Shown here piece by piece: positions 2,496-22,284 of a stretch of DNA of 36,791 bases. The stretch is from positions 1-36,791 of IMG/VR virus record IMGVR_UViG_3300021425_000087; one strand, given 5' to 3'. Below the pieces are notes generated by a model. That model did no database searches. It was not told the DNA's origin and saw nothing but the letters and a program-made list of their open reading frames with translations. How positions within the stretch are numbered: position 1 is the first letter of the stretch; the number at the start of each line of letters is the position of its first letter. Both the position numbers and the translations under genes were made by a program. The stretch is from a virus.

Positions 2496-5400
2496 ATGGC
2501 TCCTAAGAAGAGAAGATTATCATCCCTAGTTGAGTCACAACTCCCAGGGTTTATCCAATACGAGTATGAAAATTTCTCTAAGTTCGTAGAAAAATACTAC
2601 GAGCAACAGGAATCTGTTGGTCAGCCGATTGATATTATTTCTAATCTTGGTAAGTATAGAGACATTGATACTTACGAAAAGCACCTTCTTCAGCAATCAT
2701 CTACTCTTGTAAGTAATATTGCTGCCGACTCTACTACATTTGAAATAGCAGATGCCACATCATTCCCAGAAGAAAATGGTTATATTAAAATTGGTGACGA
2801 AATTTTATTCTATCAATCCAGAACTGGAAATGTCCTAGAAGAGGTTTCCAGAGGTGTTAGTGGTAATACTACCCTAGGAGACCTATATCATTCATCTACG
2901 TTTGTTACAACGGCAGCCGCTCCTCACTATCAAAGTGATGTTGTATATAACGTAAGTAATCTATTTTTGTATGCTCTTGTAAAAGAGTTTGAAAAAACTT
3001 ATCTTTCTTCATTTCCAGAAGCGTACCTCAAGGATGAAGTAGATAAAAGAATTCTTATTAAGAATATCACCAAGTTCTATAAGAGCAAAGGTACTGATAG
3101 GTCTGTTAAATTTATTTTTAACTCTATTATCAATAAAGACCCTAATGATATTCCTGTAGTTGTCAGTCCAAAAGAATCTACTTTAAAGGCTTCTACATCT
3201 GATTGGTCTCAAGATTATTATCTTTCTGTAAAAATTGTTAATGGTGATGCCGAAGATTTAATCGGTCAAGTTATTACCCAAAATTTAGACCCTTTCAATT
3301 CTAACATTACTTTTGCTTCAGGTGTTGTTGACAACGTAACTTATGTCGGTAACGACGAGTTTGACGGATACTACAAAGTTATTCTAGAGAAATCATCTGT
3401 AAATGGCGAATTTGCTGTTGCTGGAAGAACCAAGACATTAGTTGGATTAACTGCCCAAGCAACTACGGATGACAGAATTACTGTAAAGTCAACGATGGGA
3501 TTCCCCAAAAGTGGAAAACTATTGATTGGTGACGAAGTAATCATCTACAAGGACAAGACAGTAAATCAATTTATCATTAGTGAAAGAATTGGACCAATCC
3601 GTAATCATAGTGCTGATAAAAATGTATACACATACGTTGACATCACTAGTTCCGATGTACGATTAATTTCTCTTGGAATGGTTTACAATTTGTCTCCAGT
3701 TGTTTCTGCTCCTTATTCTGTTGCTGGAGAGCGAGTTCAAATTTCAAAACCTGGATTCGAAACTTTAGATCCAATTATCTATGATTTAGAGAATAAGAAA
3801 AATAGGTGGTTGGTAAACACCACTGGTTCTTTTGCTAGTGTCAAAACAGCTACTCAGAATTTCACATCTGATGTATCTGCCGTTTTTGAAGATGAGCAGT
3901 ATTACTACGTTGCTTCTTCATCACTTCCATCACAAGATGTTTTAACAAATACAACATATTCCGAAGTATTATCTGACCAGAAAAATTTAAAAATCATCAG
4001 AAAGAGACCATCAACTACTACTGAGGTATATAAAACTACCAATAGAGATGTTGGCGTGTTTATCGATGGTGTTCCTGCTATTGGTTATAAAGATACTGAG
4101 TTTCTGAAGTATGGAGAAATTGTATCAACAACAGTAACTAATAAAGGCAACTCATATGCTGCTGCTCCCTTTGTTCTTATTAACGAAAGAACTAATTTAG
4201 CAAGATGTACGTTATCTGGATCTACCGTAGATCAAATTGAAATTTTAACAAATCAAGTATTTGAAGAAGATCCTACGATTAGAATTACGTCTGGCGAAGG
4301 AGCTGTCTTGAAAGCGGTGGTGACAAAAGGTGTCATTACTAGTATGGATGTTATTGATCCAGGTAGATATTATTCATCACCACCTAATATCAGAATTGTT
4401 GATAATCTAGGAAAGGGCGCTTTTGCCGAATATGAAGCAATTTTAACCCCAGATGGAAAACTTGATGGAGCTCGTAAAATTAGTGGCGGTAGATTTTACA
4501 CTTCTGGACAAGTTAATGTAGTAGTAGAAGCAGTTGGGAGAAATGCTTCTGGAGTATGTGAGATCAAGAAGTGGGTCTATGATAGATACAACAGATATAA
4601 GAATAATCTAGATTCAAACAACGGTACTATTCTACCAAACTACAATCCTGGAAAGGGATTTGGATATGCTTATCTTGCCAACCCAGATAAGCTAAGAGAA
4701 AGAGCATACAGCAGTCCTTTAGAATATAGTCAGAATAAAGCGAATGCTACTAAAAAGCACTCACCAATTTTAGGTTTTGCCTATGATGGCAACCCCATTT
4801 ATGGTCCATATGGTTACAGTGTTCCTACTAATAGTGCTTCTGCCGTACAAAGATTGAGTACAGGATATAGAATCAATGGCAGTAGACCAAATGGTCCTGA
4901 TACTGGAAGATATCCACTAGGAACTTTTATTGACGATTATAAGTGGACTCCTAGCATTAATTCTGGTAAGACCGAACTGGATCAAAATAATGGAAGATAT
5001 TGTGTAACACCAGAATATCCAAACGGAACATATGCTTATTTTATCACTATCGATGATAATGAGGTTCCACAGTTTCCATATATTCTTGGAGAAAATTTCT
5101 ATTCACTACCAGTAGATTCTAACTACAATTCTAACATTTCACAAGATGATATTCCTTTCGGCGTAAAATCTTTGAGAACCACAACATCAGAACAAAATGG
5201 TGGAGCATTCTTTGGTTCTATCAAAGATGTCAAGAGTGGTAATATATCTTCTGCTTACATTGAAACTACTAGGGACTACTTCTCTCCTGGAGGAGATGTA
5301 TACATTAACAATGATGGTACTGGTGGATTTGGTGCCGTAGTTAAAGTAGATGAAGTTACTGGTAAGACCGTTCAATCGATTGAATCCCAAGAAACCAAAG

Positions 5401-8400
5401 CAGTTAAAATCAGCACAGTTCAACCAGCATACTTCTTTGAAGGAGATGAGATTATTCAGGTTGATTCTCAAGGAAATAGTTTTGTTGGTGGTGAAGTCAT
5501 TGGTGATGTTATTAACGAAAATACTTTCGTTTTAAGAAATGTCTCTGGAGCTAGTAATTTTAAGATTGAGTCGGGTTCAACAATTCAATCAGAAACTTTA
5601 GTTCAAAGAGTAGTATTAGATATTGATGCCAGTTTTACCATTGGATCTACTATTAGATTAACTAATGATGATGATGAAGATGTAGCAACTGGTTTAATTT
5701 TAGAAACTACAACCAGACAAAATTCTCTCACTATTAAGGTTGACAACACCAATGAACCTTTTTATGCCACTGGCGACTACTATTTACGTAGTTCTACGTT
5801 AAGTGACACAAATAGAGCAGAAGTTATTTCTGTAAATTCGTTGAGTAGTGGTTTAGAACCATTTGAAATTGATGATAATATTGCTATTGTTCAAACTGAT
5901 GGTGATCATAATCTAGGAATTAATGACAAGGTTAACGTCATTGTTATTCCAAATGATGCTACTACCACCACAACATATTATGTCAGAAAAAGATTATATC
6001 AAAGAGCAACAGTTCTTGCTCCATCACACAGTTCTGTTATAGAGGATAAAGGTCTTGGCAGTTTTGACATTTTAAATAGTGGTTTAGAATACACATCAAA
6101 TACGTATGAAGATGTAGAACTTATTTTTCAAGATTCGAATTTAGCACGTGCCAATATTGGTAAGCTAGGAGATTCTGGAAATGCTAGAGCTACAGTAGTT
6201 GTTTCTAGTCCTGGTGGATTGGGAACTGGCACAGTATCATCTATTATTATTACTGATAAAGGATCTGGATACAGAACTGGTGATATTCTTACTATTAGAG
6301 ATAGTGATCTTGGCAGAGTTTCTAATCCAGTAACAACTCAAAGATTTACTTTACAAGTAGATCATGTTGGTTTTGCTTCTTCGAACACAACTCTATACCT
6401 TTCGAATGTAAATAACCTTTCACAAGAAGATTTAATTAAGATTGGTCCAGAAACTCTCAAGATTACTAGAGTCGATACTCAAACAAAGACAGTTACCGTC
6501 GAAAGAGGGCAAGAAGGTACTGTACCTACAAATCACTACGATAGAGCATCCGTATCTTTAGTTAATTCCTACTATAGATTTGATGATAACTTCCGTCCTT
6601 TTGGAGATGGAATTACCAAACCTTATCTATTAGATTACGACCAAGATACACAAGAAATTTTTGTTGGGTATGACTATAATGTAGCAAATCCACAGAAAAT
6701 TGCTCAAAGCACTAGCTTCTTTGACAATAGTGTTCCCAGAAAACTTGTACAAATGAGATCTGTACAAGATGCTGCTTATAATTTAGAGTTTTCGACAGAT
6801 AATACAAACTTTGAAGTAAACCCCATTATTAATATTCAAAAGTATTACAGATATACCTTTGATGTTTCACATGTGTCTATGGCAGACACGTATCTGGATT
6901 TTTCTGCTAGTGCTAACTATAATATCTTCACAGAAGAAAAAGAAGTTAGTAATATTTCTCCAGGAAGTGCTGGATCTTTTGTTAGTATTAAATTAGGATT
7001 TGGTCCAGCCATTTCTAATAATAACTTCCAAAATCAGCAACCAATTAACTATCAAAATTATTTTTACTTTATCAAAGTTTCTCCTAATGTAGATACAAAT
7101 AATTCGTATTTGAGAATTATCAATGATCCATTAACATCTATAAACACTGTAAATTATGTCACTCCCAATAAATTTGTTTATTCTATGGCAGAAATTCCTG
7201 CCTACGATGGATCTGGAGATATTTCATATACAACTACATCTAGAGAAGCAATTGGTGGATTGACCAAAATTAAAATCGTAAACACAGGCGAAAATTACAA
7301 TCTCTTACCAACAGTTAAAGGTATTTCACTATCTTCCGAATTTGAAGCAGATGTTGAACCATTTTATGATGAGATCAATCAAGTTATAACTGGATTTAAC
7401 ATTATTGATGGCGGCAGTAATTATTCAAAACCTGTAGCGGTAGTCACTGATGGTGATGGATCTGGATATGTATATGAATGTGATACTAGATCTGGTAAAT
7501 TAACCTCAGTTAGAATCGTAAAAAAAGGTCAAGGATTTACATACAAACCATCTGTAAGAATTATTGAATCGGACATTAAAGTTTACTTAGAATCCAATAA
7601 TATTGGATTGCCGAAGAATATTCAAATCAGCAATCCAGGTAGAGGATTCAATGCTGATGAATCTTTATTGAGCACTTATAAGTCACCAACTACATTTGTA
7701 CTGAGAAATATTTCCGACAAGTTCTTCTTTGGTGAAAAAATTATACAAGATTCTACTGGCGCTACTGCTATTGTATCCGAGAATGGATATAGAGAAGGAA
7801 GTAATTTATTAAAAGTAAATTCTTTGAGTGGCGTATTTAAGAACGGCGAAGAAATCAAGAGTGCTATCGGTTCTAGAACAGCAACTCTATACGCTCAACT
7901 CTCTACAGAATTTGATCCAGAAATTAAATCATACGTTGATAATTTTGGTTTCTATACATCAGATAGAGGTAAACTAAGCAACAATAACCAAAGATTACAA
8001 GATTCTTACTTCTATCAAGATTACTCGTATGTTTTAAAATCTAAAACATCCATTGAAGTATGGAGAGATCTGATTAAAGAAACGACCCACCCAGCTGGAT
8101 TCCAGTTGTTTGGTGAGATGGTTATTGATAGTAAGGCAGAAGCACCAATGCCTACTTCACAACCTACTTTAAATTATGTTAGTGTAATTGAGTTACCTAC
8201 GGTACAGATAACATCCCTGTCATCCTCTAGAGTAATCACAGTAATTCAAGAGAAGTTTGAAAACACTATTATTGAAGATGGTGTTGGATCTGTTTCTGTA
8301 GATACTTTTGACACCACAGAAACTAACACTTATAATGTGTCATTAACACCAGCATTTGATGGTAGATTTGATCCCAATACTGGACAAGTCATTGGTACTA

Positions 8401-11400
8401 AGACATTTACCATGGTTGACAAGGTATCTGGAAATGCTTTAACACTGTCTAGAAATGAACAGCTATTTGTCACATTAGATAGTGTTATTCAAGAACCAGG
8501 AGTTTCTTATACCATTAACGGTTCTTCAATTACATTTGCTCAAGCACCTTTTGGTGATAGAGTAATTGAAGGTCAAGATGTTTATGCTGTTAAGTTTTTT
8601 GGTAGAGCAATTAAATTTAAGAACCCAACCTTAAACACTAGGTATTTTAGAAAACTTCAAAACATTGCTGATCAGTTTGATGGAGTACAATTCGAATTTG
8701 ATCTTTATTGGGAAGATGGTTCTATTGTAAAGACCGATCCCAATGAAAATCTCATTGTAGCATTAAATGGTGTTGTTCAAAAAGCAAGAGGGAATGAAAC
8801 TGAACCATTTGGAAACTCATATTCTATTATTAGAGATGAAGATGTAAGTGTAGCTGATAAGATTAGGTTCTCCAAACCACCAATTGACAATGAAGATCTT
8901 TATGGTCCTCCAGAAGAATTGCCAGAGGAACTTAAAGCATATGAAAAATGTTTTATCTATAGCATTGGTAGCTATCAGCGTCTAAAAATTAATTCAAGGC
9001 TTTATGAGTATAGATTTGGCGGTCCTTATCTAATTCAAGATGAAATTACTAATGAGATTAGAAAGGTCGATGACTCTTCATATGCTTTGGTATTCATCGA
9101 TGGCGTTTTACAGCAAGAAGGAAAGTCCTATCAAATTGTAGGACCAAATATTACTTTTACAGAACCACTTAAGTCGTATGAAGACGCTACTGGTCTTAGA
9201 GTCACTCAGGATGTAAATATCATTCTGATGTATGGTAGAGATGTTCCAAGAACTCTCACTTTCTACGAATTTGAACCCAATGCTTTCAACAATGTTTTAA
9301 GAGTAACTTTGTCTGGAACAGGCGTTTCTCAAAATCTACTTGATGAATACGACATTAAAGAATCAAACCAGCGAGTATATTTTACCCAAGGTTCTACTCT
9401 AGTTGGCAAGATTGCTAGTTATTCAGTTCAAAGTGCCGATGAAATTATCATCAACTTTGTTAATCCATTAAACGTCAAGTTAGATTCTGATACTCCTCTC
9501 ACACTTAATGATCTAGATCATTTTGGCATGGGGAATTATTACTCTACCGATATTCCAGGAACTTATACTGTAAGTTATGAGTATAAAAAGGATGAAGATG
9601 GTGATCGAGTTCTAGAAAGATATGTACCTCAATGGTTGTATGGATTAGTAGCTGGCAATAGAGCATGGAATAACAGAAATTCTATGTTTGCTAACTTGAT
9701 TCCTGGTGATAAAATTTTAATCGATGGAGAATCTAAGTACCGTACTGTAACTGCTACGCCAGATACAGCTAAGGCGATGAACTATAGAGATGGAGATTTA
9801 GTTCAGACCGCCATTTATGCTAAGGCAAACGTAACCGATTACAACGGAGACACTCAAGGTGTTGGTTTAAGTTTGACCGCTAATATTAGTGGTGGTGCTG
9901 TTCAAACCTTAAATGTTGCTGATGTTGAGTGGAACCAACGTGACCTACAACTTTACTTTGAGCAAGATATTCTTCTACAACCCACTGCTTACGAATATTA
10001 CACCACTCCAGAAGTTCACTTCATTCCTGTAGATGGAAATGGTGGTGGTGCTAAGGCAGAAGTTATTGCTTATGGTGGTCAGATTCTTGATGTTGTATTA
10101 ACTGAAGGTGGTAGTGGTTACACACAACCACCAAAAGTAGTTGTAGCAAGGCGTTTCAAGAGAATCAAAGAAAATGCTCGTAAAGTTGATACTTTAATTA
10201 AACTTGGAGTACAAAGTGTTAAAGGAGTAGGATCTCCAATTAGTTCTGTATCTGAGGTTATTCTTTTTGGTGATGGAGATACCAACGCTATCTTCTCTTT
10301 GGTTACTTTTGGTGGATCATCTGGATCTGTTGTTTCCACTGCCGATCAAATTACTACAAATATTCAAACTTTACCTGGGGAAGAACGTCAGGTAAGAATG
10401 ACTGATGAAAAGTTCCCAACAGAAGCAAGGGTACAGTCACCAGTACCATATATTCCACAAATAACAGATCACAATGTTGATAGAGTTATTACTCAGGTTG
10501 TTGGTGGTGTAGTTGGGTTTGAGATTGATACTTCTATCAATACGATTGAAGTAGAAGAGTTAACAGCAATCATCCAGATTCCAGCAAGAAAAGCATTCGT
10601 TCCAAAAGGACTACCTTCTCTTAATGGTTACGGAACATTCTTGGATGCTCCATTGGCACAGGTTATCAACGCTCCTGACAACTACAGAGAGATTGTATAT
10701 GTAGCAAATACTAGTAGATTCCCAGATACTCCAAGTAGATTACGTATTGGTAGAGAACTTCTATTCTATAGAGAGAAACAAGAAGATAGATTCCTTGGAG
10801 TTAGCAGGGGTTGGTTAGGTACACCAGCTGATGTTCATAATGCTGGTGATCTAGTTCTTCATGAACCAGAATTTGTTACTCTACTTTCTGGTGGTGTCAC
10901 TGAGATTTACACCGAAGTTAGTGTTTCTTCCGCCTCTACTGCTAGAAGAGAATCTAAGTTTACTATTCAATCTATCAGTGATGTTCAGGTTGTTGAGTCA
11001 AGCATACATGAAATTGAAAATGAATTCCAGATTGAAGTTGATCAATTTGAACCAGATGTAATTAAACAGATTACAATTATTCCACCAACATCATATAATA
11101 TTGTTACTGAGGTACATTCTACTACATCTAGAATTTCTTTTGCCTCAGCTACTCCAAGAGATATTGCTGGATTTATCAGTACTGAAGTTGTTACGATCGA
11201 AGAAACATCTCTTCAATTAACACAAGAAGATAAGATTCTAATTGAACCTAAGTCAACTATTACTTCGGTTACAATTGGTAGCGTTGCTTCTACTGCTGCT
11301 TCTACTTCACAGGTAGTAACTGTTTCGAATGAACCAACACTAGTAACAAATCAAGTACAGGTTGAAACTATTAGTTCTATTAACAGTGTCACTACAACTA

Positions 11401-12236
11401 TTATTGAAGATTTACATTCTACAGTGTATACTCTTGGTTCTATAATCAACACATTTACTTCATTTGATGCTAGTGCTATCAAGATTGCTGAAATCAACAT
11501 TGAAACCGAACCTCACGTTGTTCGTCATATCACAGAAATTACATCAACTGTTTCCGATGTTGATACATTTGTAACTACGTTTAGTTTAATTGTTGGTTCT
11601 AGAGCAGATGGTGTTGGTGGATCTGCTATTCAAGTTCCATATAAATTTGCCACTGTTGATTTCATTATCGAAGAATATGTATTAGAAACATATATCAAAT
11701 TGAGATCTGGAACTAATTTTACTTTGGCAAATCCATACAATGAAGTAATCTTTAGAGACGGGTCAACCTTCCTGGTAGAAAACGGAGATCAAAATGTTCC
11801 AACAGGATTTGAAGATTATACTCTTGGCAACGTTGGATTAACATTAGGATCTTTTGAAAATAATGCCTTAGTCGATTCTGGAATTAGTTCTGGTTTGACT
11901 TTAAGTGACTTAGATACAATCTATCCAACATTGACTATACGTGACTTCGAGTTTAGACAAGATTCTGCTCTTATTGGTAATGGAGATAGATTTAACCTTG
12001 GTATTCCATCTTATCAACAACCTGTTGCTATTAGTTCTTCTTCTGGAACTATTGGTGGTAGTATTGTTGTACAAAGTACAGAATACTTTGCTGATGAGGG
12101 ATACTTATTTACAAGTAGCGGAAATGTTATTCAATATACTTCCAAGAGCACCACTACATTTAATGGATGTACACTATTCCGCGGAGCAAATTCTATTGCC
12201 GCTGGTGATAACCTGATTCCGTTCTCAATCGTATAA
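2496..12236 (+). CDS. 7: Giant baseplate wedge protein gp7 homologue with large insertions (3,246 residues)
   Basis: It occupies the gp7 position between gp6 and gp8 and resembles the C-terminal half of T4 gp7 as I recall it. An N-terminal FxxFVEKYY helix (about 28-35) is followed by KFYKSKG (193-199) and VKFIFNSIIN, then EDLIGQVI (253-260) and DNVTYVG. Much later come VWRDLIKET and H1865-P-A-G-F, matching the HPVGF region of T4 gp7. T4 gp7 is about 1,030 residues; here the core segments are separated by about 1,500 residues and followed by about 1,370 more. Inserted material includes five IGDE-type beta modules, many GxGY repeats, a YHYH-like domain (about 755-865), three or more GVxQ beta modules (1989-2250) and a Thr/Ser/Val-rich stretch (about 2800-3040). 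gp7 initiates wedge assembly by binding gp10 and gp8. The frame is intact throughout. The ATG lies four bases after the gp6 stop. Confidence 0.82.
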   Translation: MAPKKRRLSSLVESQLPGFIQYEYENFSKFVEKYYEQQESVGQPIDIISNLGKYRDIDTYEKHLLQQSSTLVSNIAADSTTFEIADATSFPEENGYIKIGDEILFYQSRTGNVLEEVSRGVSGNTTLGDLYHSSTFVTTAAAPHYQSDVVYNVSNLFLYALVKEFEKTYLSSFPEAYLKDEVDKRILIKNITKFYKSKGTDRSVKFIFNSIINKDPNDIPVVVSPKESTLKASTSDWSQDYYLSVKIVNGDAEDLIGQVITQNLDPFNSNITFASGVVDNVTYVGNDEFDGYYKVILEKSSVNGEFAVAGRTKTLVGLTAQATTDDRITVKSTMGFPKSGKLLIGDEVIIYKDKTVNQFIISERIGPIRNHSADKNVYTYVDITSSDVRLISLGMVYNLSPVVSAPYSVAGERVQISKPGFETLDPIIYDLENKKNRWLVNTTGSFASVKTATQNFTSDVSAVFEDEQYYYVASSSLPSQDVLTNTTYSEVLSDQKNLKIIRKRPSTTTEVYKTTNRDVGVFIDGVPAIGYKDTEFLKYGEIVSTTVTNKGNSYAAAPFVLINERTNLARCTLSGSTVDQIEILTNQVFEEDPTIRITSGEGAVLKAVVTKGVITSMDVIDPGRYYSSPPNIRIVDNLGKGAFAEYEAILTPDGKLDGARKISGGRFYTSGQVNVVVEAVGRNASGVCEIKKWVYDRYNRYKNNLDSNNGTILPNYNPGKGFGYAYLANPDKLRERAYSSPLEYSQNKANATKKHSPILGFAYDGNPIYGPYGYSVPTNSASAVQRLSTGYRINGSRPNGPDTGRYPLGTFIDDYKWTPSINSGKTELDQNNGRYCVTPEYPNGTYAYFITIDDNEVPQFPYILGENFYSLPVDSNYNSNISQDDIPFGVKSLRTTTSEQNGGAFFGSIKDVKSGNISSAYIETTRDYFSPGGDVYINNDGTGGFGAVVKVDEVTGKTVQSIESQETKAVKISTVQPAYFFEGDEIIQVDSQGNSFVGGEVIGDVINENTFVLRNVSGASNFKIESGSTIQSETLVQRVVLDIDASFTIGSTIRLTNDDDEDVATGLILETTTRQNSLTIKVDNTNEPFYATGDYYLRSSTLSDTNRAEVISVNSLSSGLEPFEIDDNIAIVQTDGDHNLGINDKVNVIVIPNDATTTTTYYVRKRLYQRATVLAPSHSSVIEDKGLGSFDILNSGLEYTSNTYEDVELIFQDSNLARANIGKLGDSGNARATVVVSSPGGLGTGTVSSIIITDKGSGYRTGDILTIRDSDLGRVSNPVTTQRFTLQVDHVGFASSNTTLYLSNVNNLSQEDLIKIGPETLKITRVDTQTKTVTVERGQEGTVPTNHYDRASVSLVNSYYRFDDNFRPFGDGITKPYLLDYDQDTQEIFVGYDYNVANPQKIAQSTSFFDNSVPRKLVQMRSVQDAAYNLEFSTDNTNFEVNPIINIQKYYRYTFDVSHVSMADTYLDFSASANYNIFTEEKEVSNISPGSAGSFVSIKLGFGPAISNNNFQNQQPINYQNYFYFIKVSPNVDTNNSYLRIINDPLTSINTVNYVTPNKFVYSMAEIPAYDGSGDISYTTTSREAIGGLTKIKIVNTGENYNLLPTVKGISLSSEFEADVEPFYDEINQVITGFNIIDGGSNYSKPVAVVTDGDGSGYVYECDTRSGKLTSVRIVKKGQGFTYKPSVRIIESDIKVYLESNNIGLPKNIQISNPGRGFNADESLLSTYKSPTTFVLRNISDKFFFGEKIIQDSTGATAIVSENGYREGSNLLKVNSLSGVFKNGEEIKSAIGSRTATLYAQLSTEFDPEIKSYVDNFGFYTSDRGKLSNNNQRLQDSYFYQDYSYVLKSKTSIEVWRDLIKETTHPAGFQLFGEMVIDSKAEAPMPTSQPTLNYVSVIELPTVQITSLSSSRVITVIQEKFENTIIEDGVGSVSVDTFDTTETNTYNVSLTPAFDGRFDPNTGQVIGTKTFTMVDKVSGNALTLSRNEQLFVTLDSVIQEPGVSYTINGSSITFAQAPFGDRVIEGQDVYAVKFFGRAIKFKNPTLNTRYFRKLQNIADQFDGVQFEFDLYWEDGSIVKTDPNENLIVALNGVVQKARGNETEPFGNSYSIIRDEDVSVADKIRFSKPPIDNEDLYGPPEELPEELKAYEKCFIYSIGSYQRLKINSRLYEYRFGGPYLIQDEITNEIRKVDDSSYALVFIDGVLQQEGKSYQIVGPNITFTEPLKSYEDATGLRVTQDVNIILMYGRDVPRTLTFYEFEPNAFNNVLRVTLSGTGVSQNLLDEYDIKESNQRVYFTQGSTLVGKIASYSVQSADEIIINFVNPLNVKLDSDTPLTLNDLDHFGMGNYYSTDIPGTYTVSYEYKKDEDGDRVLERYVPQWLYGLVAGNRAWNNRNSMFANLIPGDKILIDGESKYRTVTATPDTAKAMNYRDGDLVQTAIYAKANVTDYNGDTQGVGLSLTANISGGAVQTLNVADVEWNQRDLQLYFEQDILLQPTAYEYYTTPEVHFIPVDGNGGGAKAEVIAYGGQILDVVLTEGGSGYTQPPKVVVARRFKRIKENARKVDTLIKLGVQSVKGVGSPISSVSEVILFGDGDTNAIFSLVTFGGSSGSVVSTADQITTNIQTLPGEERQVRMTDEKFPTEARVQSPVPYIPQITDHNVDRVITQVVGGVVGFEIDTSINTIEVEELTAIIQIPARKAFVPKGLPSLNGYGTFLDAPLAQVINAPDNYREIVYVANTSRFPDTPSRLRIGRELLFYREKQEDRFLGVSRGWLGTPADVHNAGDLVLHEPEFVTLLSGGVTEIYTEVSVSSASTARRESKFTIQSISDVQVVESSIHEIENEFQIEVDQFEPDVIKQITIIPPTSYNIVTEVHSTTSRISFASATPRDIAGFISTEVVTIEETSLQLTQEDKILIEPKSTITSVTIGSVASTAASTSQVVTVSNEPTLVTNQVQVETISSINSVTTTIIEDLHSTVYTLGSIINTFTSFDASAIKIAEINIETEPHVVRHITEITSTVSDVDTFVTTFSLIVGSRADGVGGSAIQVPYKFATVDFIIEEYVLETYIKLRSGTNFTLANPYNEVIFRDGSTFLVENGDQNVPTGFEDYTLGNVGLTLGSFENNALVDSGISSGLTLSDLDTIYPTLTIRDFEFRQDSALIGNGDRFNLGIPSYQQPVAISSSSGTIGGSIVVQSTEYFADEGYLFTSSGNVIQYTSKSTTTFNGCTLFRGANSIAAGDNLIPFSIV
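2736..3620 (+). repeat. IGDE-type beta module in gp7, first two copies
   Basis: Residues about 81-128 and 326-375 of gp7 share a pattern of a Phe-Pro turn, a GxLxIGDExIxY strand pair, and an F-x-x-x-x-R-G ending. Examples are KIGDEILFY and LIGDEVIIY. Three more distant copies lie at about 6388-6556 (DLIKIGPETL), 10687-10857 (LRIGRELLFY, ending RGWLGTPADVH) and 12057-12224 (more degenerate). The pattern is common in phage tail and baseplate proteins. The first copy lies inside the conserved gp7 core, so it is itself an insertion. Confidence 0.6.
4758..5090 (+). other. YHYH-like domain within gp7
   Basis: Residues about 755-865 of the gp7 homologue carry GFAYDGNPIYGPYGY (760-774), the hallmark of the YHYH domain family. 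Downstream lie a GTFIDDYKWT segment, NNGRYCVTPEYPNG, and FPYILGE. The family's Y-H-Y-H position reads Y846-A-Y-F849, so both histidines are missing and any metal-linked role is doubtful. The domain is probably structural here. It sits in the middle of the large insertion that separates the two halves of the gp7 core. Confidence 0.65.
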
Positions 12237-12245
12237 ATATAAATA
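12232..12245 (+). promoter_or_regulatory. Two overlapping late promoter octamers before gp8
   Basis: Two perfect TATAAATA octamers overlap by two bases, at 12232-12239 and 12238-12245. The stop codon of gp7 (TAA, 12234-12236) is inside the first. They are six bases apart and would give two start sites half a helical turn apart, with leaders of roughly 34 and 40 bases. The gp8 ribosome site GAGAGAG follows at 12271-12277. Confidence 0.75.
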
Positions 12246-12284: not shown

Positions 12285-14153
12285 ATGGCTGCTATCATCT
12301 CAGATAAGTTTAGAATTTTTAATGCTTCCCAGTTTCTAGAATCACTGAGTGAAGCAGAAGATACGAAGATGTATTTCTTCGTAGGTCGTCCCCAGCGTTG
12401 GGATGCTTACCTTGAAATCTTCAGTGCTAATGCCACAGCATTCGTTCCTGGTAACGAGGTATATGTTGGTGGTACTTATGGCACTGCCACTTTTAAAGCA
12501 GAAGTTAGAGAAGTATACGAAAATTCACTTCTCCTATTCCAAATTGGTCCAACCACAAACGCTACTCCTGGAGTAGGTGCTCAACTCAAGGGATGGAATG
12601 GAACTGCTGATACTGGCGCTCAAGCATTGACTGGTGTTTATCGTTACGCCACAGAGGACGTTCCCCCTGTACCTCTAGACAACCAGGCAGAAAAGTATGA
12701 TATCTATGATGATATCATTGCTGCTAAGCGTATTACCACCGATTTCGCCCGTAGCGTAATCCGTCGTTTCAACTGGGACATCTCTGCTAACCCAGTATTC
12801 GACATGTGGAAGCCCGACTACTCCACAACGCCTGGTTCTGGTGGTCAGATCGGTAAGGCAGCTGCTACTGGCGCTACGAACATTGCCGACGCCAAGTACT
12901 ATCTAATCAATTCTCAGTATGAGGTATTTAAGTGCCTCTACAATGGTCAAAATCCTGCCAACACAAGCGGTCAAGTTGCTACCAACGAACCCAAGACCAC
13001 TCCTTCTGCTGGTCAAGGTTCTTATGATGCTGCCACTGGCAAATTCACCGAAGATGCTTCTGCTCCTGGTGGATATATCTGGAAGTATATGTACACCATC
13101 CCAACTGATGATGTATTACGCTTCTTATCTACTGACTTTATGCCAATCGTTCTTCCAACGAACCAGTCACGTATCGATACTGAAGCAATCTCTACTGCTG
13201 CTCCTAACTCCATCGATGTTGTTCTAATTGAAGACGCTGGAACTAATCTTCCTAATGGTACTCATTATGCTCCTATTCTTGGAGATGGTACTGGCGGTGT
13301 TGCCGAAATCGTAGTTGCTGGTGGTATTGTTACTGATGTCACCGTTACTGCTGGTGGTAGTGGATATACCTACGCTTCTATCGCTCTAGAAACTGGTCTT
13401 CTAAATGGCGATCCTGCTTGGACTGGTGCTGCTTATGGTCTCTACACTTCAAGTGCTTTCTCTGCTCCTGTCACCGTAGGTGCCACAGCGACTGGTGCTC
13501 TTGAAGTCATTCTACCTCCTCAAGGTGGCCACGGTTCGAACTTCGAAGAAGAGCTCAATGCCAAGCGTGTTATGACGAACATCCGTCTAACTTATGCTGA
13601 AGGATCTGGCGACTTCCCTGTTGATAACGACTTCCGTCGTATCGGTATTATCAAGGATCCATATGCTTTCGGTACTACAACCGTCGCTTCTACCAGCACA
13701 CTAAATGGTGTATATGCTGCTAGAATTGAGAACGCTACTGCTGACTATCAGGTTGATGAAACAATCCGTCAAGCAGCTGCTGCTGGTGGTTTTGCTTACG
13801 GCACCGTAGTTTCTTGGGAACTAGATGCTGGTAATGCTGGTCCTGGTGGATCTGGTGTCCTCAAGTGGATCCAGTCACCTTCACTTCACACCGATGCTGG
13901 TGTCGTAAGAGCTTTCGAAGCATCAGCTAACAATATTGAGGGTCTTTCTTCACTTGCTGCTGGTGACGTTATCACCACTGCTGATGATCCTGTAGCAGCG
14001 AACGCGACTCTAGGTGGCGTTACGTTCTCGAATGGTCTTGCTACCCCAGAGATCGAAAACAACTCTGGTGAGATCATCTATGTTGAGAACCGTCGTCTCA
14101 TCACACGTGCTGCTGACCAGATCGAAGATATCAAACTCGTTATCGAGTTCTGA
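12285..14153 (+). CDS. 8: Baseplate wedge subunit gp8
   Basis: At 622 residues it is nearly twice T4 gp8 (about 334), which binds gp7 and gp6 as a dimer in each wedge. Visible T4-like landmarks are DKFRIFNASQF near the N-terminus, FFVGRPQRWD (31-40), GGYIWKYMYTIP before the centre, FRRIGIIKDP in the last third, and the C-terminal SGEIIYVENR with AADQIEDIKLVIEF, which matches the T4 C-terminus as I recall it. A segment at about residues 305-410 holds a GGSGY beta repeat and has no counterpart in T4 gp8. Arginine is mostly CGT here, unlike the AGA-rich neighbours. Two overlapping late promoters and a GAGAGAG ribosome site lie just upstream, so it is probably expressed as its own late unit. Confidence 0.92.
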   Translation: MAAIISDKFRIFNASQFLESLSEAEDTKMYFFVGRPQRWDAYLEIFSANATAFVPGNEVYVGGTYGTATFKAEVREVYENSLLLFQIGPTTNATPGVGAQLKGWNGTADTGAQALTGVYRYATEDVPPVPLDNQAEKYDIYDDIIAAKRITTDFARSVIRRFNWDISANPVFDMWKPDYSTTPGSGGQIGKAAATGATNIADAKYYLINSQYEVFKCLYNGQNPANTSGQVATNEPKTTPSAGQGSYDAATGKFTEDASAPGGYIWKYMYTIPTDDVLRFLSTDFMPIVLPTNQSRIDTEAISTAAPNSIDVVLIEDAGTNLPNGTHYAPILGDGTGGVAEIVVAGGIVTDVTVTAGGSGYTYASIALETGLLNGDPAWTGAAYGLYTSSAFSAPVTVGATATGALEVILPPQGGHGSNFEEELNAKRVMTNIRLTYAEGSGDFPVDNDFRRIGIIKDPYAFGTTTVASTSTLNGVYAARIENATADYQVDETIRQAAAAGGFAYGTVVSWELDAGNAGPGGSGVLKWIQSPSLHTDAGVVRAFEASANNIEGLSSLAAGDVITTADDPVAANATLGGVTFSNGLATPEIENNSGEIIYVENRRLITRAADQIEDIKLVIEF

Positions 14154-14161
14154 TTTGGTTT

Positions 14162-14210
14162 TTACTCCGCTAAATACTTCAACGATAATGTAGAGTATTT
14201 GGCGGAGTAA
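14162..14210 (+). promoter_or_regulatory. 17-bp hairpin sequestering the ribosome site of the 2,690-residue gene
   Basis: The arms 14162-14178 and 14194-14210 pair over 17 bases with one G-U wobble (T14171 with G14201); T14179-G14193 can extend it by a second wobble. The loop is about 13-15 bases. The 3' arm contains GGCGGAG (14201-14207), the only Shine-Dalgarno for the ATG at 14212. The 5' arm contains the late octamer at 14169-14176. There is no T-run after the stem, so it is not an ordinary intrinsic terminator. In read-through RNA the ribosome site would be paired; in RNA started at the embedded promoter the 5' arm would be missing. Confidence 0.8.
14169..14176 (+). promoter_or_regulatory. 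Late promoter octamer inside the hairpin's 5' arm
   Basis: GCTAAATA matches the T4 late octamer at six of eight positions and is the same form as the octamer before the giant fibre gene (27883-27890). By T4 spacing the start site would be near 14182, in the hairpin loop. The RNA would then have a leader of about 30 bases with an exposed GGAG. It would drive the DUF4815-type gene and the 66-residue gene. Confidence 0.6.
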
Positions 14211-14211
14211 C

Positions 14212-17200
14212 ATGCCACAGAAGACTAATCTTAATGTAGCACCATATTATGATGATTTTGATGCTGACAAGAACTTTTATAAAGTTCTATTCAGACCTGG
14301 ATACTCGATCCAGACTAGGGAGTTAACATCTCTACAATCGATCCTCCAGAATCAAATTGAGAGTTACGGTAAGTTCTTGTTCAAACAAGGACAGCAAGTA
14401 ATTCCTGGTGAGGTTGGTTTAAATACCAAACTTGACTTTGTTAAATTGTCTTCTGTATCGGAGGTTGCTGTCAATGAAGGTGGACAAATTGTCTACAAAA
14501 AGTATGACATTAAACAACTAGTTAATACTGACCTTAGGGGAATCAATTCGGGGGTTGTCGGTAAGGTCGTATCAGCAGAATATGGGTCTGACGTAGAAGC
14601 TGATACATTGTTTGTCAAGTATACAACTAGTGGTGACGCTAATAACGAATCTACTTTTAGACAAGGTGAAACACTTGAAGTTATCGGTGGCATCAATACT
14701 CCATTACTCGTAGTTGGTACTGATGGTAGTGTTCTACCAACCAGTATTAACGTAACCGATCCTGTCTCTGGAAATGTTAACTCGTTTAGCAGTCCAGCGA
14801 TGGGATTTGCTACTGCGGTTGAAGTTCAGGAAGGTATTTACTTTGTAAATGGTTTCTTTGTCAAGAATCAAAAACAACTTCTTATTATTAATAAGTATTA
14901 TGACAAAGCTTCTGCTAAGGTAGGATTTACAATTAACGAAGATATTGTAACTCCAGAAGAAGATGCCTCTTTGTATGACAATGCTAGGGGTTTCTCTAAC
15001 GCTTCTGCTCCTGGTGCTCATCGACTTAGTATTGATTTAACTTTAACTAAGTTTGATTATGGAGCAAATACAGATAAGAATTTTATTCAACTTCTCCAGA
15101 TCAAGAATGGTACGGTAGAGAAACAGGTAAAGGCAGCAGATTACTCTCTACTAGAAGAAACACTGGCAAGAAGAACATATGATGAATCAGGTGACTATGT
15201 TGTAGATGATTTTGATTATTCTATTAGAGAATACTACCAAAAAGGATTTAATAACGGCGTATATGCTCTCAGCGAAGAAACTGGTCTAGTTAATGGATAC
15301 AGTGAAGTAGAAGCCGCTGATAGAATGGTTCTTACTGTAAGTTCTGGTAAGGCATATGTCAAGGGTTATGAAATTGTTAATAAAGAGTCGAAACCACTAG
15401 AAGTAGAGAAAGGAAGAGATACTCTCACTAGAGATAACGTCACGTTAAAGAGTCGTGGACTTCCAGAATTTAACATTACTAATGTATATGGTTCTGTACC
15501 TTTAAACAATGTCGGAGATACTATTACAGGATATCCCACAGTAACTCTAAATTCAACATTTACCGATGGTACAATTGGATTCTCTGGTTTAGAGGCATCT
15601 TCATATTACAAGAAAACTGTTAATAGAAGATCTCAACAACTTGGTATCAACACTGGTATTAAAACTATTTGGGTTGAAATTTCTGGAGCAATTCCATCTA
15701 ATACTGATGGTATCCCCAGCACCTTATGGTTTGTTACCACAAGAGGATCTGGAACTGTTGTTGGAAAATCTGTTGATGTGATTGCTAAATCATTAGTAAC
15801 TAGAGAAGATATTGCGGCAGCAACGACATTTGCCGAACTTACTGTTATTGGTGACAAGGCAATCTTAGATGAGTTCTTGCTTGAGTATGATACAGGTTTT
15901 GAAAATGTTTTTGAAAAATACCTATATCAAACCGAATCTGCTATGCAGTCCGAGACAGGACCTTGGGGCGTAATCAAGGACTATAATCGTAGTATTACTC
16001 CAGTAATTGGATTAGCAAAACCCAAGAACTTTAGGCTCATTAATAGGGCATTAGGATTTAATCCAGATACAGATATTATTCTGTCTAGAGGTAGATCTGG
16101 AACCCAAACTCCTTATGACGCTACATTTGGATTCAGTTATTTTAATCCAACATTCTTCACAAAACTAACGTTAGATAGAAACATAGCAGATGGCACCTTT
16201 ACAAAAGGTAAGTACATCTACGGAAAAGAAAGTAAAGCATATGCTGTCATCGAAAATGACACCACAGAAAACTTCTCTGGAAATAACACGCTATTCGTAA
16301 CTACTTTATTTGGACAGTTTATTCCTGGCGAAACTATTATTGATGAAGCAAATAACACTATTAAGATTGCTAAGAACAACACTCTGTCACACTTTGTTGT
16401 CACCAAACGAGGTGCTAATTATGATGGTTCTGAGAACATGTTCATCAATGGTGCTGAGTACGATCAATCCAAGATTGATCTATCATACACATCAGATGGA
16501 ACATCAATTGTATCTGCTGTAATTTTAGATCAAAAAGTTCGTAATATCGAGTATTTCTCTCCACCTACAGTTACATTAACTGGAGATGCTGATAACAATA
16601 CTCCTGCTATCATTGTTCCTGTATTGTTTAGAGATGCTGTCCTCACATACACCCCTCAAAATGTAAAGTCATTTGCTTCGGTATACAATAATTACACCTT
16701 CACAGCAGACATTGATGTATCATCCTCATCTTATGCCACATACACTCAAATTAGTGACTTTAGTTTCTTTGGAACCCAAGGAGGAAAATATCTTGAGTGT
16801 AATGGATTTGGTGCTAACTTAACTGGATTAATCCAGGGAGACATTATTCAGTTTACTGATGCCAACAACAACGTAATTAGAACAGTTGTACAATACGTTA
16901 CCGAACCTTCTGGTATTGATAAGTCAAGAATTTATCTCGATTATTCTCTACCAGCTGATGTTGTAAACGCCACTATTATTAAATTACGTCCAAGAATTGC
17001 TAACTCTTCATCCTCATTGGTATTCCCAACAGGAAGCAAGCAGGTTGCTTCTTTGGTTAGTGACACCAGTGATACTAAGTTTAAGTATTACATTAGAAAA
17101 GATTTTGTAACTGAACTTTCTTCTGCTGGCGGACTACTAACCTTTACTGCTCAATTGCCAGTTGGTACACAAAAGTTTGTTGGATTTACTGAAGAGAACT

Positions 17201-20200
17201 TTGTCATTACTGTACTAGATAAAGGATCTTCTACGGTTGTTGAAAATGGCGACATTGTTTATATTGATCCAAGATATGTCACTATTACAGATTCTCAAGT
17301 AACTGCCAGCACCGTTACGGCTGGTGCTTTAGCAATCGAGGGACTACCACAGAATTACTTTGGAACTATCCTTGATGGTAACTATCCAACTCTCAAGTTG
17401 ACAGCTACTGTACAAATTGACAGAGCACGTCCTAGATTAAAGACGGTAGTTAGAGACAAGAGAGTTGTTGTTGTTTCAAGTGGAGACCGTGTAATTCCTA
17501 TCAGGGGACAAGATTACGATTCAGATATTATTGAAACGTTCTCATATTCTGATGTATTTAAACTAAAGTATATTTACGAAGGAACTGTAACTAATCCACC
17601 ATCAGTAGATAGATCTGGCAATTTGATCAGTGGAACTGATGTTACATATAAGTTTAGTTTTGATAATGGTCAACGTGACACTTATTACGATGTTTCTAGA
17701 ATTATTCTAAAACCTGGATTTGACGCTCCTACAGGTCAGTTGGTTATTGCTTTCGATTACTTCAACCATTCTGCTGGAGATTTCTCCACCGTCGATTCTT
17801 ATGTACACGAAGCTGGTGTTACAGCGGAAGAAATTCCTTTGTTTAACTCGGAAGCAAATGGTTTGGTAGCACTTAGAGATTGTATTGACTTTAGACCAAA
17901 AGTAGACAATAATACTACAATTACTGGTTTCCAAGATAATTCAATCGTTTCTCTATTCGATTCTACCGATTATATCAGTTTCACTGGAAATGGTGGTATT
18001 CCTTCTGCCACTCCTGCTCCAGATACAAATCTGATCTTCACCATGTCATTTAGCGAGAAACAGTATCTTGATCGTATTGATGGATTGTTCCTCACCAAAC
18101 AAGGAGATTTTGTCGTCAAGAAGGGCAACTCTTCTCTCAATCCATCCAAACCAGAACCAATTGATGATGCCATTTCTCTTTGCTATCTTCACATTCCCGC
18201 TTACACAAACAGCAGCAAAGATGTAAGAGTTATCCCTGTTGATAACAAGCGTTATACTATGAAGGACATCGGTAAGCTAGAGAAGCGTATCGAACGTCTT
18301 GAGTACTACACCACTCTAAGCATTCTAGAGCAGCAAACACAGAACATGCAGATCAAGGATGACCTTGGTCTAGAAAAATTCAAGAGTGGATTCCTTGTAG
18401 ATAACTTTGAAGCACATAGAGTCGGAAATCTTAAATCTGTTGATTATAAGTGTGCTATTGACACCCAGCAATCTGTACTTAGACCACAATCTAAAGAAGA
18501 TAGTTTAACTCTTAGAGAAATCAACACCAGAGATGACCAGAGACAAGTTGCTGGTTACACTATTAAGAATGGAGTTATTTCTCTGCCATACACTGAAGTA
18601 GAAGTTTTAGGTAATAAGAATGCTACCAAAACTATCAATCCAAATCCATTTGTTGTTATTCAATATGTTGGCGAGTCAGTAATTACTCCACAACAGGATT
18701 CTTGGTATGATCAGTCAGTTGCTCCTCTTGTTTCCGACTCAAACACTAAACTAAATTCAATCTACTTAGCAAAAGAAGAATCTCTTGCTGACGCTTATTC
18801 TAGTATCTACAATTCATTTATTGTAAACTGGTGTGGTACTGATCAGGCATTCTTGCCAATCGAATCTCTAGCAAATGTCAATAGTGAAGATTTACAATCT
18901 TCTGTACAGAGTGCCAGTGTTGCTAGTTCCTCTAATACCAGTCCACAAAACAATGAGATTGGAAAGGGTCAATCTTCAAGACAGGTTGGCAACAAAAAAG
19001 TTGCTACTTCCGTATCGTTCTTTGCTAGATCAATTCCAATCAAATTTGTCGTCAATCGCTTAAAACCCAATACTAGAGTATACGTCTTCATGGAAGGTCG
19101 TGATATTAATGGATGGGTAGTTCCCGATACTAGATTTACTGGTATTGCTGGAAACTCTTTAACTTCATTTGGATCTGAACTTGTAACAGATTCTAATGGT
19201 AATCTTAGTGGTATTATTGTAGTTCCAGCAGGTCTAAAACCAACTCCAAATACTAGATGGACTGGCAATGTTGATACAGTTTCATACAGTGAAGGTTCTG
19301 AGGAAGTCAGATTTACAACTGGTATTAAAACCATCAGATTTACATCAAGTGATCAAGATGGAGACAAAGCAGCTGCTGATACATATGCTGAGGTTCAGTT
19401 CTATGCTACTGGAGCTCTTCCAAGCAACCCCCCAAGCATTACATCTACACAAGCAGCATTCTTCAAATCAAATGAGGGTGTACAATTAGTTGATAGTAAT
19501 ACTGATAATCCAATCAAACCAAATCCTCTTGCTCAAACATTCAAAGTTGAGAATTTCCCACTTGGTATGATGACAACTGGTGTAGATCTCTTCTTCCAGA
19601 AAAAGAGTTCTTCCGTTCCTCTAAGAGCATATTTGACAGATGTCGTTTCAGGTAAACCAGGAAAGAATATTATCCCTGGCACACAAGTATCTCTAAATCC
19701 AGAAACATACTTGAGAGTGTATGTAACGGGCGAGAAAGAGACGGTAACTATCGGCAAGGGGGAATATGTATCTGGATCCAGTTCTAATGCTTCTGGACCC
19801 ATTTTGAAGGTACTAGACGCTAATAACGTAGAGGTTGGCGATGAGTCAAGCACAACATTTGAGTTGAATAAAGAGCAGGTTTATACCTTGGTTCTCAGCA
19901 ATCACAATGGAACATCATTTGTTCCAAACGAGGCGCTATCAATTCCTTCTATTGTTAGTTACAATGCTAAGAATAATACTACTTTAGGAATTTTCATTGC
20001 TAAAGATTCTGGTAAGGTCACAAGATTAAAAGTTCTCGACACTGGCGACAATTACGAAACCGCTTCTCTAACAATTGAAAGTCCACAACTTCCAGGTGGT
20101 TCTTCTGCCACCGCTAGCGTTGGTGTTTCAGACGGTAAAGTTTATAATGCCGAAATTTCTCTATCTGGTCGTGGTTACACTGAAGCTCCATCAGTTGTTA

Positions 20201-22284
20201 TCAAAGGTGTAGGAACTGGTGCTGCTGGCGCTATCATTCAATCATTCATTGAAATTGATACACCTGCTGTTAGCATGGGTATTGCTACAGATTTTGAAGG
20301 TGATATCGAATCTACTACACCAACTAACTTTAAGTTTAAGCACCCAGTTTATCTACAGAACAATACCGAATATGCTTTGGTTGTAGAGACCGATTCTTTA
20401 GATTATGCTCTCTGGGCATCTAAGTTAGGAGAAATTGAAATTGCTACTAGCAATGTAGTTACTACACAACCTTTACTTGGTTCTGTTTATAAGTCACAAA
20501 ATACAGATAACTGGACAGAAGATTTGTTTGAAGATTTGAAATTTGTTTTATATCGTGCTGAGTTTGATATTGCTACTGAAGCAAATGTAGAACTTACTAA
20601 CGATTCTCTGGGTTATGAATTACTGAACATTTCTCCTTTTGAAACTAGCGTTAGATCTCCATCCAATGCCACATCACCTCTCTTCAAAAACAATAATTCT
20701 ATTATTAAAGTAAATCATAGAAACAATGGATTTGAAGATAGTGGCAATTCATATGTATTCTTTGCTAACACACAAGATGTTGGAGGTGTTTCCAGTGCTA
20801 CTTTGAATGGAAGATTGTTTAAGGTTTCTAACGCTGGTTTAGATTTTTATAACATTGTTTCTCCAAACCCAGCTGGTTCTAGCGTACTTGGTGGTGGAGA
20901 TAAGGTTATTGCTTCTTTCAATAGAAAGTATGAAAGGCTTTATGCTCAGATTCCTCACCTAGAATTAGAAGGAACTAAGATCGATACATTTGTTTCAACA
21001 ACTAACATCATTCCAACTGATGCCAGTGTAACAAATTACGATTCATATTCTGTAACCGACTATGAACAAACTTTCTTAAACGAAGAGCATTTCTTCATTA
21101 ACCAGAAAATTGTTGCCTCGGACATCAACTCTATTACCAATGGCATTAAAGATAGCCTTAAGTACAAGTTGAGGCTCAAGTCAACAAACGCTGCTGTTTC
21201 TCCGATCATTGATCTTAGAACTGCTTCTGTCAAGACAGCAACAAACCGTGTAGAAAATGCTACTGGTTATGAAAATCGTTATGGTAAGAGAAATCAAATT
21301 CTATCGTTCTTGCCACTATTTGATATGAACATTGCTGCTGCTGATACTAACGCTGATCAGTTTGTAGCAGGAACTGTTATTATTGGTCAAAACTCTAAAG
21401 CAGAAGGATATGTCGTATCATACGAAAATGGAACTGCTCGTGTAAGATTGAGAACACAAACAGAATTCCAATCAAGTGAGTCATTGACATTAATTAATAG
21501 CTCGGGTGTAACTGTTGGAGATATTAGTTTACAAGTTGGAAACATTTCTAGGATCTCATTTGATTTCAGTGTTGGATCTAACTTAATTGCTTATTATCCT
21601 TTTGATACTGACGTAGATTACAACAATAAGATCAATGGCAAAATTGTTCTGTGGGATCCAGAAGAAAATATTCTTGTGGTTGAGAATGCTTTTGCTCCTA
21701 TTAATAATAACTACATTGCCAGCAACACAGAAGATACTCCTTTTGTAAGATTAGCATCTTCAACCAGTCAGCAACCAGACATTTTTAGAAAAGGTGATGT
21801 TGTTAAAACTACTGCTGGTACAGAAGCATTCCTAGAGATTGCTACAATGACATTTGATACTGGTATTGATTATGTACCAGAAACAGATTCTTCAAATAGT
21901 TCTTCTATTGCCAAATACGTTACTAAGGAAGTTTCTATTAACAATCCTGGCAGTTCTATTACAGTTAAAACTACAGTTAACGTTCCTGATATTGAAAACA
22001 TTAAAGTATACTATAAAATTAAAGAAGCTTCGAGTTCTATTAACTTCGAAGATACTAATTGGGTTCCTTTTAATGTCAATGGCAATCCAGATTTTGATAT
22101 TATTGCTACCCCAACAAATTCAATTTCTGGTCAATTTGAAAAACAAGAAGATTATCAAGAACTAACTTATAGTGCTTCAGATCTTCCAGATTTCAGTTCA
22201 TTTGCTGTAAAGATTGTTATGAGATCTGAGAACCCAGCATATGTACCCAAAGTACAAGATCTACGAGCAGTTGCTTCATACTAA
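14212..22284 (+). CDS. Giant DUF4815-type virion structural protein (2,690 residues)
   Basis: The N-terminus carries the DUF4815 signature PYYDDFDADKNF (11-22), LFRPGYSIQTREL (26-38) and LQNQIESYGKFLFKQG (45-60). A central segment, YTMKDIGKLEKRIERLEYY (about 1348-1366), is a predicted coiled coil typical of cyanophage versions. It is followed by GFLVDNFEAH and a KPNTRVYVFMEG strand motif. The C-terminal third has LAQTFKV (1773-1779), DLFFQKK, FKFKHPVYL (about 2040) and SQNTDNWTEDLFEDLKF (about 2095). Two GxGY-type repeats (about 1942 and 1984) lie in a segment that looks inserted between the FFQKK and HPVYL blocks. By position it replaces T4 gp9 or gp10 in the outer baseplate or fibre attachment; that role is inference. 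The ribosome site GGAG lies four bases before the ATG, buried in a hairpin. The stop overlaps the next start (TAATG). Confidence 0.8.
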   Translation: MPQKTNLNVAPYYDDFDADKNFYKVLFRPGYSIQTRELTSLQSILQNQIESYGKFLFKQGQQVIPGEVGLNTKLDFVKLSSVSEVAVNEGGQIVYKKYDIKQLVNTDLRGINSGVVGKVVSAEYGSDVEADTLFVKYTTSGDANNESTFRQGETLEVIGGINTPLLVVGTDGSVLPTSINVTDPVSGNVNSFSSPAMGFATAVEVQEGIYFVNGFFVKNQKQLLIINKYYDKASAKVGFTINEDIVTPEEDASLYDNARGFSNASAPGAHRLSIDLTLTKFDYGANTDKNFIQLLQIKNGTVEKQVKAADYSLLEETLARRTYDESGDYVVDDFDYSIREYYQKGFNNGVYALSEETGLVNGYSEVEAADRMVLTVSSGKAYVKGYEIVNKESKPLEVEKGRDTLTRDNVTLKSRGLPEFNITNVYGSVPLNNVGDTITGYPTVTLNSTFTDGTIGFSGLEASSYYKKTVNRRSQQLGINTGIKTIWVEISGAIPSNTDGIPSTLWFVTTRGSGTVVGKSVDVIAKSLVTREDIAAATTFAELTVIGDKAILDEFLLEYDTGFENVFEKYLYQTESAMQSETGPWGVIKDYNRSITPVIGLAKPKNFRLINRALGFNPDTDIILSRGRSGTQTPYDATFGFSYFNPTFFTKLTLDRNIADGTFTKGKYIYGKESKAYAVIENDTTENFSGNNTLFVTTLFGQFIPGETIIDEANNTIKIAKNNTLSHFVVTKRGANYDGSENMFINGAEYDQSKIDLSYTSDGTSIVSAVILDQKVRNIEYFSPPTVTLTGDADNNTPAIIVPVLFRDAVLTYTPQNVKSFASVYNNYTFTADIDVSSSSYATYTQISDFSFFGTQGGKYLECNGFGANLTGLIQGDIIQFTDANNNVIRTVVQYVTEPSGIDKSRIYLDYSLPADVVNATIIKLRPRIANSSSSLVFPTGSKQVASLVSDTSDTKFKYYIRKDFVTELSSAGGLLTFTAQLPVGTQKFVGFTEENFVITVLDKGSSTVVENGDIVYIDPRYVTITDSQVTASTVTAGALAIEGLPQNYFGTILDGNYPTLKLTATVQIDRARPRLKTVVRDKRVVVVSSGDRVIPIRGQDYDSDIIETFSYSDVFKLKYIYEGTVTNPPSVDRSGNLISGTDVTYKFSFDNGQRDTYYDVSRIILKPGFDAPTGQLVIAFDYFNHSAGDFSTVDSYVHEAGVTAEEIPLFNSEANGLVALRDCIDFRPKVDNNTTITGFQDNSIVSLFDSTDYISFTGNGGIPSATPAPDTNLIFTMSFSEKQYLDRIDGLFLTKQGDFVVKKGNSSLNPSKPEPIDDAISLCYLHIPAYTNSSKDVRVIPVDNKRYTMKDIGKLEKRIERLEYYTTLSILEQQTQNMQIKDDLGLEKFKSGFLVDNFEAHRVGNLKSVDYKCAIDTQQSVLRPQSKEDSLTLREINTRDDQRQVAGYTIKNGVISLPYTEVEVLGNKNATKTINPNPFVVIQYVGESVITPQQDSWYDQSVAPLVSDSNTKLNSIYLAKEESLADAYSSIYNSFIVNWCGTDQAFLPIESLANVNSEDLQSSVQSASVASSSNTSPQNNEIGKGQSSRQVGNKKVATSVSFFARSIPIKFVVNRLKPNTRVYVFMEGRDINGWVVPDTRFTGIAGNSLTSFGSELVTDSNGNLSGIIVVPAGLKPTPNTRWTGNVDTVSYSEGSEEVRFTTGIKTIRFTSSDQDGDKAAADTYAEVQFYATGALPSNPPSITSTQAAFFKSNEGVQLVDSNTDNPIKPNPLAQTFKVENFPLGMMTTGVDLFFQKKSSSVPLRAYLTDVVSGKPGKNIIPGTQVSLNPETYLRVYVTGEKETVTIGKGEYVSGSSSNASGPILKVLDANNVEVGDESSTTFELNKEQVYTLVLSNHNGTSFVPNEALSIPSIVSYNAKNNTTLGIFIAKDSGKVTRLKVLDTGDNYETASLTIESPQLPGGSSATASVGVSDGKVYNAEISLSGRGYTEAPSVVIKGVGTGAAGAIIQSFIEIDTPAVSMGIATDFEGDIESTTPTNFKFKHPVYLQNNTEYALVVETDSLDYALWASKLGEIEIATSNVVTTQPLLGSVYKSQNTDNWTEDLFEDLKFVLYRAEFDIATEANVELTNDSLGYELLNISPFETSVRSPSNATSPLFKNNNSIIKVNHRNNGFEDSGNSYVFFANTQDVGGVSSATLNGRLFKVSNAGLDFYNIVSPNPAGSSVLGGGDKVIASFNRKYERLYAQIPHLELEGTKIDTFVSTTNIIPTDASVTNYDSYSVTDYEQTFLNEEHFFINQKIVASDINSITNGIKDSLKYKLRLKSTNAAVSPIIDLRTASVKTATNRVENATGYENRYGKRNQILSFLPLFDMNIAAADTNADQFVAGTVIIGQNSKAEGYVVSYENGTARVRLRTQTEFQSSESLTLINSSGVTVGDISLQVGNISRISFDFSVGSNLIAYYPFDTDVDYNNKINGKIVLWDPEENILVVENAFAPINNNYIASNTEDTPFVRLASSTSQQPDIFRKGDVVKTTAGTEAFLEIATMTFDTGIDYVPETDSSNSSSIAKYVTKEVSINNPGSSITVKTTVNVPDIENIKVYYKIKEASSSINFEDTNWVPFNVNGNPDFDIIATPTNSISGQFEKQEDYQELTYSASDLPDFSSFAVKIVMRSENPAYVPKVQDLRAVASY

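Follow-up and report, generated by a model that had tools for sequence, protein, structure and literature searches.

A predicted hairpin over the ribosome-binding site of a giant cyanophage tail-cluster gene, with a late-promoter motif in its 5′ arm

In phage T4, a hairpin block cuts lysozyme synthesis from gene e 100-fold, and the 5′ strand of the blocking structure contains late promoters (PMC3014915). Read-through RNAs of T4 soc, gene 49 and I-TevI and of Aeromonas phage Aeh1 mobE likewise have a helix that inhibits translation by covering its start (PMC3014915), and the junction described here has the same arrangement by prediction. Cyanophages possess gp55 and a late motif, NATAAATA (PMC2984593), and the promoter core CTAAATA with position −12 at C is known in another T4-like phage (PMC1524935). 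In the literature searched, we found neither a comparable hairpin element in cyanophages nor cyanophage start-site data.

The gp8–giant gene junction

The window (the whole stretch of DNA analysed, 36.8 kb) is a tail cluster from a T4-like phage of marine cyanobacteria (Kyanoviridae); among named phages, those closest to it are Synechococcus phages of the same family. Its relevant features are:

300-692, gp53-like gene
695-2491, gp6 gene
2496-12236, giant YHYH protein gene of 3,246 codons in the gp7 position
12232-12245, plus strand, two overlapping late octamers, TATAAATA, with exact matches at 12232 and 12238, upstream of gp8
12285-14153, plus strand, gp8 baseplate wedge gene (Pfam Phage-Gp8, phrog_438)
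14162-14179, plus strand, 5′ arm of the hairpin (near-perfect inverted repeat at 14162-14178; 14179 adds a U.G pair in the fold)
14169-14176, plus strand, late octamer GCTAAATA within the 5′ arm, with the core CTAAATA at 14170-14176
14182 (plus or minus 1-2 nt), plus strand, predicted late transcription start, placed from the octamer −12 position in T4-like phages
14193-14210, plus strand, 3′ arm of the hairpin (inverted repeat at 14194-14210, and fold)
14201-14207, plus strand, Shine-Dalgarno GGCGGAG (GGAG at 14204-14207), predicted to be fully paired in read-through RNA
14212-22284, plus strand, giant gene of 2,690 codons (Pfam DUF4815, phrog_358, a family of unknown function)

Only 58 bases separate gp8 from the giant gene; the gp8 stop codon TGA occupies 14151-14153 and the stem begins 8 nt later. 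The sequence-only reading had called the giant gene a baseplate gene, a label drawn from its position and not established, as DUF4815/phrog_358 has no known function. Homologues in isolates are annotated as structural protein or 'virulence associated protein', and further structural genes lie 3′ of the giant gene in the window. Several genes neighbouring the one at 2496-12236 exceed 1,600 codons.

The core CTAAATA occurs only three times in the window, twice upstream of genes. Taking −12 at the C places +1 at 14182, beyond the end of the 5′ arm, which agrees with the start near 14182 suggested earlier. An exact octamer match is also found at 274, ahead of the gp53-like gene, and the octamers at 12232 and 12238 are a predicted source of RNA reading through from gp8. 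The number of sigma-70 promoters near the hairpin was not above chance.

The gp53-like gene was itself considered as a second switch. Here the late octamer, CATAAATA, is near a start region that pairs with upstream RNA (274-300 of the window), and three relatives (L417, L419 and L424) have a clean 8-bp hairpin, TAGAGATA...TATCTCTA-ATG, at this gene with the octamer in the 5′ arm. The case is suggestive in these relatives; in the window, 410 of 1000 shuffles were as good, and the candidate was dropped.

The hairpin and the predicted cost of opening the start site

The arms at 14162-14178 (TTACTCCGCTAAATACT) and 14194-14210 (AGTATTTGGCGGAGTAA) are 17 nt long and 94% complementary, with one G.U pair and a 15-nt loop, and the predicted fold extends the stem to 18 continuous bp through the U.G pair 14179-14193. 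No other non-overlapping close-armed inverted repeat in the window is as strong. The RNA fold of 14140-14240 has an energy of −34.5 kcal/mol (z −5.88), and none of 200 shuffles was as good. The near-perfect 17-bp stem noticed earlier is thus borne out, and the Shine-Dalgarno and the late octamer do lie in the 3′ and 5′ arms, respectively. GGCGGAG is 4 nt 5′ of the ATG at 14212, and the AUG sits just outside the stem.

Other identities for the element were discarded. It is not an intrinsic terminator: the stem is followed by CATGCC with no U run, and no terminator was called on either strand. Nor is it a mobile or dispersed repeat, as a pattern search of 10 genomes found none with more than a single copy and every copy at the giant gene; the 200-kb relative has one copy. 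Rfam 15 had no matches in the window at gathering score, and no terminator-like site was found on the plus strand between the end of gp8 and the hairpin.

We expressed the consequence of the fold as an opening cost: the predicted free energy for unfolding positions −14 to +3, calculated both for the long RNA and for the RNA that begins at 14182. For the giant gene, the predicted cost is 24.6 kcal/mol in read-through RNA and 7.2 kcal/mol in the RNA from 14182. Shuffling the upstream part 1000 times with dinucleotides kept gave a mean of 8.8 (sd 2.0, maximum 20.6), and no shuffle reached 24.6; four other octamer-bearing genes of the window were at chance level. In the nearest near-complete relative (200 kb, L011/G001), the long/short difference for the giant gene, 18.1, is the extreme of 33 promoter-start pairs, for which the next-highest value is 6.6 and the median 1.0. 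This folding contrast, the genome-wide comparison and the conservation among relatives lend good support to the proposed logic of a blocked long RNA and an accessible short one.

At the S-RSM4 junction, where a terminator is present, the giant-gene difference is only 3.8. The top differences in that genome (FM207411) belong to two minus-strand octamers. One, at 96885 (13.9 kcal/mol), precedes a hypothetical ORF of 63 aa; the other, at 29449 (8.8 kcal/mol), precedes a tail-fibre-like gene that comes after a tRNA-Gly gene, whose fold may add to the difference.

Conservation of the arms and apparent exchange with terminators

Protein scans together with ten isolates yielded 140 distinct junctions. 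A matching hairpin precedes the giant gene in many contigs and in isolates including S-RSM4, S-H9-1 and ACG-2014e. An exact-pattern scan of the viral collection also found matches mostly upstream of the giant gene; the remainder, inside unrelated sequence, look like chance. Terminator-less lineages close to the window have identical arms. In a set of 17 close variants, the two arms hardly change, with variation at the loop tip and just outside the stem, while only 5% of the third codon positions of the giant gene are invariant. This difference points to selection on both arms, including the ACTCCG that lies outside the promoter.

More distant junctions retain parts of the design. Some relatives have a 5′ arm of ACTTCGC or AACTCGC against GCGGAGT, and in L037 and L305 the Shine-Dalgarno side reads GGGGTAAAA with a 5′ arm of TTTTACCC or TTTTACTC, a paired change. 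Predicted sequestration is weak in several terminator-less relatives (L024, L034, L304, L305, L336 group). The S-PM2/Syn1 clade has the octamer and an open start site, S-CAM1 and S-CAM3 are without the octamer, and some relatives have neither octamer nor hairpin. As judged from these sequences, deeper clades are without the blocking element. In the last 60 bases before the giant gene of Syn1 (L087), the octamer belongs to another hairpin, CCTAACCTCCTAAATAAGGTTAGG, which leaves the start site free; in S-PM2 (L086), an outer stem, GTTCTGA/TCAGAAC, takes in the gp8 stop codon and also leaves the start uncovered.

The sole wobble of the stem core, 14171-14201, falls on the T of the octamer and is kept in 63 of 63 aligned variants. 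A Watson-Crick pair at this position would make the minus strand read CTAAATA and so create a late promoter in antisense orientation. Avoidance of such a promoter may account for the kept wobble, although the G is also within the Shine-Dalgarno region.

Covariation of the arms in relatives had been proposed as a check. A signal is real, but it is modest and partly confounded with relatedness. Over the full alignment, covariation is weak, with six pairs showing double changes and 23 of 500 shuffles equally high, and indels close to the loop make these counts, taken from MAFFT alignment A1, less sharp. When arms were swapped among terminator-less rows, native pairs (−17.5) were more stable than swapped ones (−15.5), and none of 1000 swaps was as stable; in terminator rows, native pairs were no more stable than swapped. 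As proof of co-evolution, the arm-swap result is weakened by control coding windows from the same rows, 2 of 30 of which were as extreme, so that relatedness alone can suffice. We regard co-evolution of the arms in terminator-less lineages as suggestive from the alignments; terminator-bearing lineages have a weaker hairpin and no sign of it.

In other relatives, among them S-RSM4, S-H9-1, S-WAM2 and Sf-CH1b, an intrinsic terminator follows gp8 and immediately precedes the promoter. The automatic terminator calls in L015, L020 and L146, part of a first, pattern-biased set, were spurious, and a stricter detector was then used. The median opening cost is 14.7 (6.7-26.4) in 48 terminator-less rows and 8.9 (6.8-13.6) in 39 terminator rows, a contrast with p 1.4e-7 by a statistic that ignores relatedness. 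On the gene tree, the terminator state changes at least 12 times; ready-made cassettes may recombine, making its origins fewer than its changes. When 13 kcal/mol is taken as the cut-off, the direction is as expected in 5.5 of 8 independent pairs and opposite in none (median p 0.03), and this sign test depends on the cut-off, with median p of 0.03, 0.125 and 1. The exchange of terminators at the identical place fits insulation, and terminator and strong hairpin look like alternative insulators against gp8 read-through. A more tentative extension, which we think possible but would not yet favour, is that two interchangeable insulators have been repeatedly switched at one junction, leaving the giant virion protein to be expressed solely from its own promoter. 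The purpose would then be to insulate dosage within a late operon, not to separate early from late.

Proposed function and comparison with known systems

The hairpin is probably best explained as a translational insulator that acts in cis and contains a late promoter. RNA reading through from gp8 would carry both arms, and the 18-bp stem would hide the Shine-Dalgarno of the giant gene and make translation poor. A late sigma factor of the gp55 type would initiate at the octamer in the 5′ arm, and the short late RNA, starting near 14182 and lacking the 5′ arm, would expose the ribosome site. Synthesis of the giant protein would then depend on its own late promoter alone, independently of transcription of the upstream tail operon, and relatives would reach equal insulation by an intrinsic terminator just before the promoter, with a weaker hairpin. 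Cyanobacterial ribosomes may rely less on Shine-Dalgarno pairing, which weighs against the translation block. The footing of this explanation is the sequence, the predicted folds, the conservation and the terminator association, from which we infer promoter use, start site, translation block and purpose.

As to purpose, the idea that the gene is kept silent until late transcription peaks did not fare well, because the upstream gp53-like, gp6, gp7-like and gp8 genes have their own late octamers. Since such octamers are present at 274 and at 12232 and 12238, the read-through RNA is probably for the most part late as well, though early transcripts may also enter the cluster. A role in insulation or dosage control therefore seems likelier.

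Three other accounts of the hairpin deserve consideration. It might mainly set RNA ends, either as a site of RNase III-type processing or by stabilising the 3′ end of gp8 mRNA, the hiding of the ribosome site being a side effect. Eighteen continuous bp only 8 nt past the gp8 stop would suit such a role, and where the hairpin is missing, a terminator is often found in its place and would likewise define the end of gp8 mRNA. However, an end-forming hairpin could sit anywhere in the gap, whereas this arm pairs with exactly the Shine-Dalgarno, and in L037 and L305 its partner changes along with the Shine-Dalgarno; moreover, with no U-run after the stem the hairpin itself is no terminator. We consider this account rather unlikely.

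It is less likely still that the conserved arms are DNA or transcription signals (an extended promoter, an inverted promoter or a protein site) and the RNA hairpin is incidental. The octamer and the bases downstream of it are under transcriptional constraint anyway, and the 3′ arm read in reverse gives CCAAATA, close to the late core. Yet this reverse core is always without the T (the U.G pair being kept in 63 of 63), and hence makes no antisense late promoter, and the outer 5′ arm ACTCCG is dispensable for a promoter, terminator-bearing relatives having CTCTA there. Just as improbable is a real but non-blocking hairpin that ribosomes finishing gp8 melt or re-initiate past, in a coupled translation of read-through RNA: the gp8 stop is close to the stem, and in the L266/L273 group it abuts a weaker stem, but in the window a terminating ribosome reaches only the base of the 18-bp stem, and the AUG is 58 nt past the stop.

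For the translational insulator, the likeness to T4 e, soc and 49 that the sequence-only reading had drawn is apt (PMC3014915). In gene e, as in the window, the ribosome site is in the 3′ arm and the late octamer in the 5′ arm, and the long RNA is blocked while the late RNA is free (PMC3014915), a behaviour that is predicted here. The window has, by prediction, the Shine-Dalgarno in a stable helix, the octamer in the 5′ arm with the start beyond it, and an open late RNA; read-through should also reach the gene, as the plus-strand sequence contains no terminator-like site before the hairpin. The differences are equally clear. T4 applies the block to early long RNAs and to a lysis gene, whereas in the window late promoters precede the upstream genes and the gene under control is a giant of structural type; soc, gene 49, I-TevI and Aeh1 mobE likewise concern other genes and purposes (splicing, endonuclease control). 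Unlike in gene e, the hairpin appears to be exchanged for a terminator in cyanophage relatives. S-RSM4-like junctions have the junction, the gene and the octamer in common with the window, but there read-through is halted at transcription, the hairpin is weaker and the arms show no co-evolution. A classic T4 control layout would extend to a giant gene of structural type, in a virus group that ranks among the most abundant in the ocean, and the terminator/hairpin exchange among close relatives would offer a natural experiment on how virion-protein dosage is set in late operons. By this comparison, the hairpin would work like those of T4 e, soc, 49 and I-TevI, an element of a known kind in a new place.
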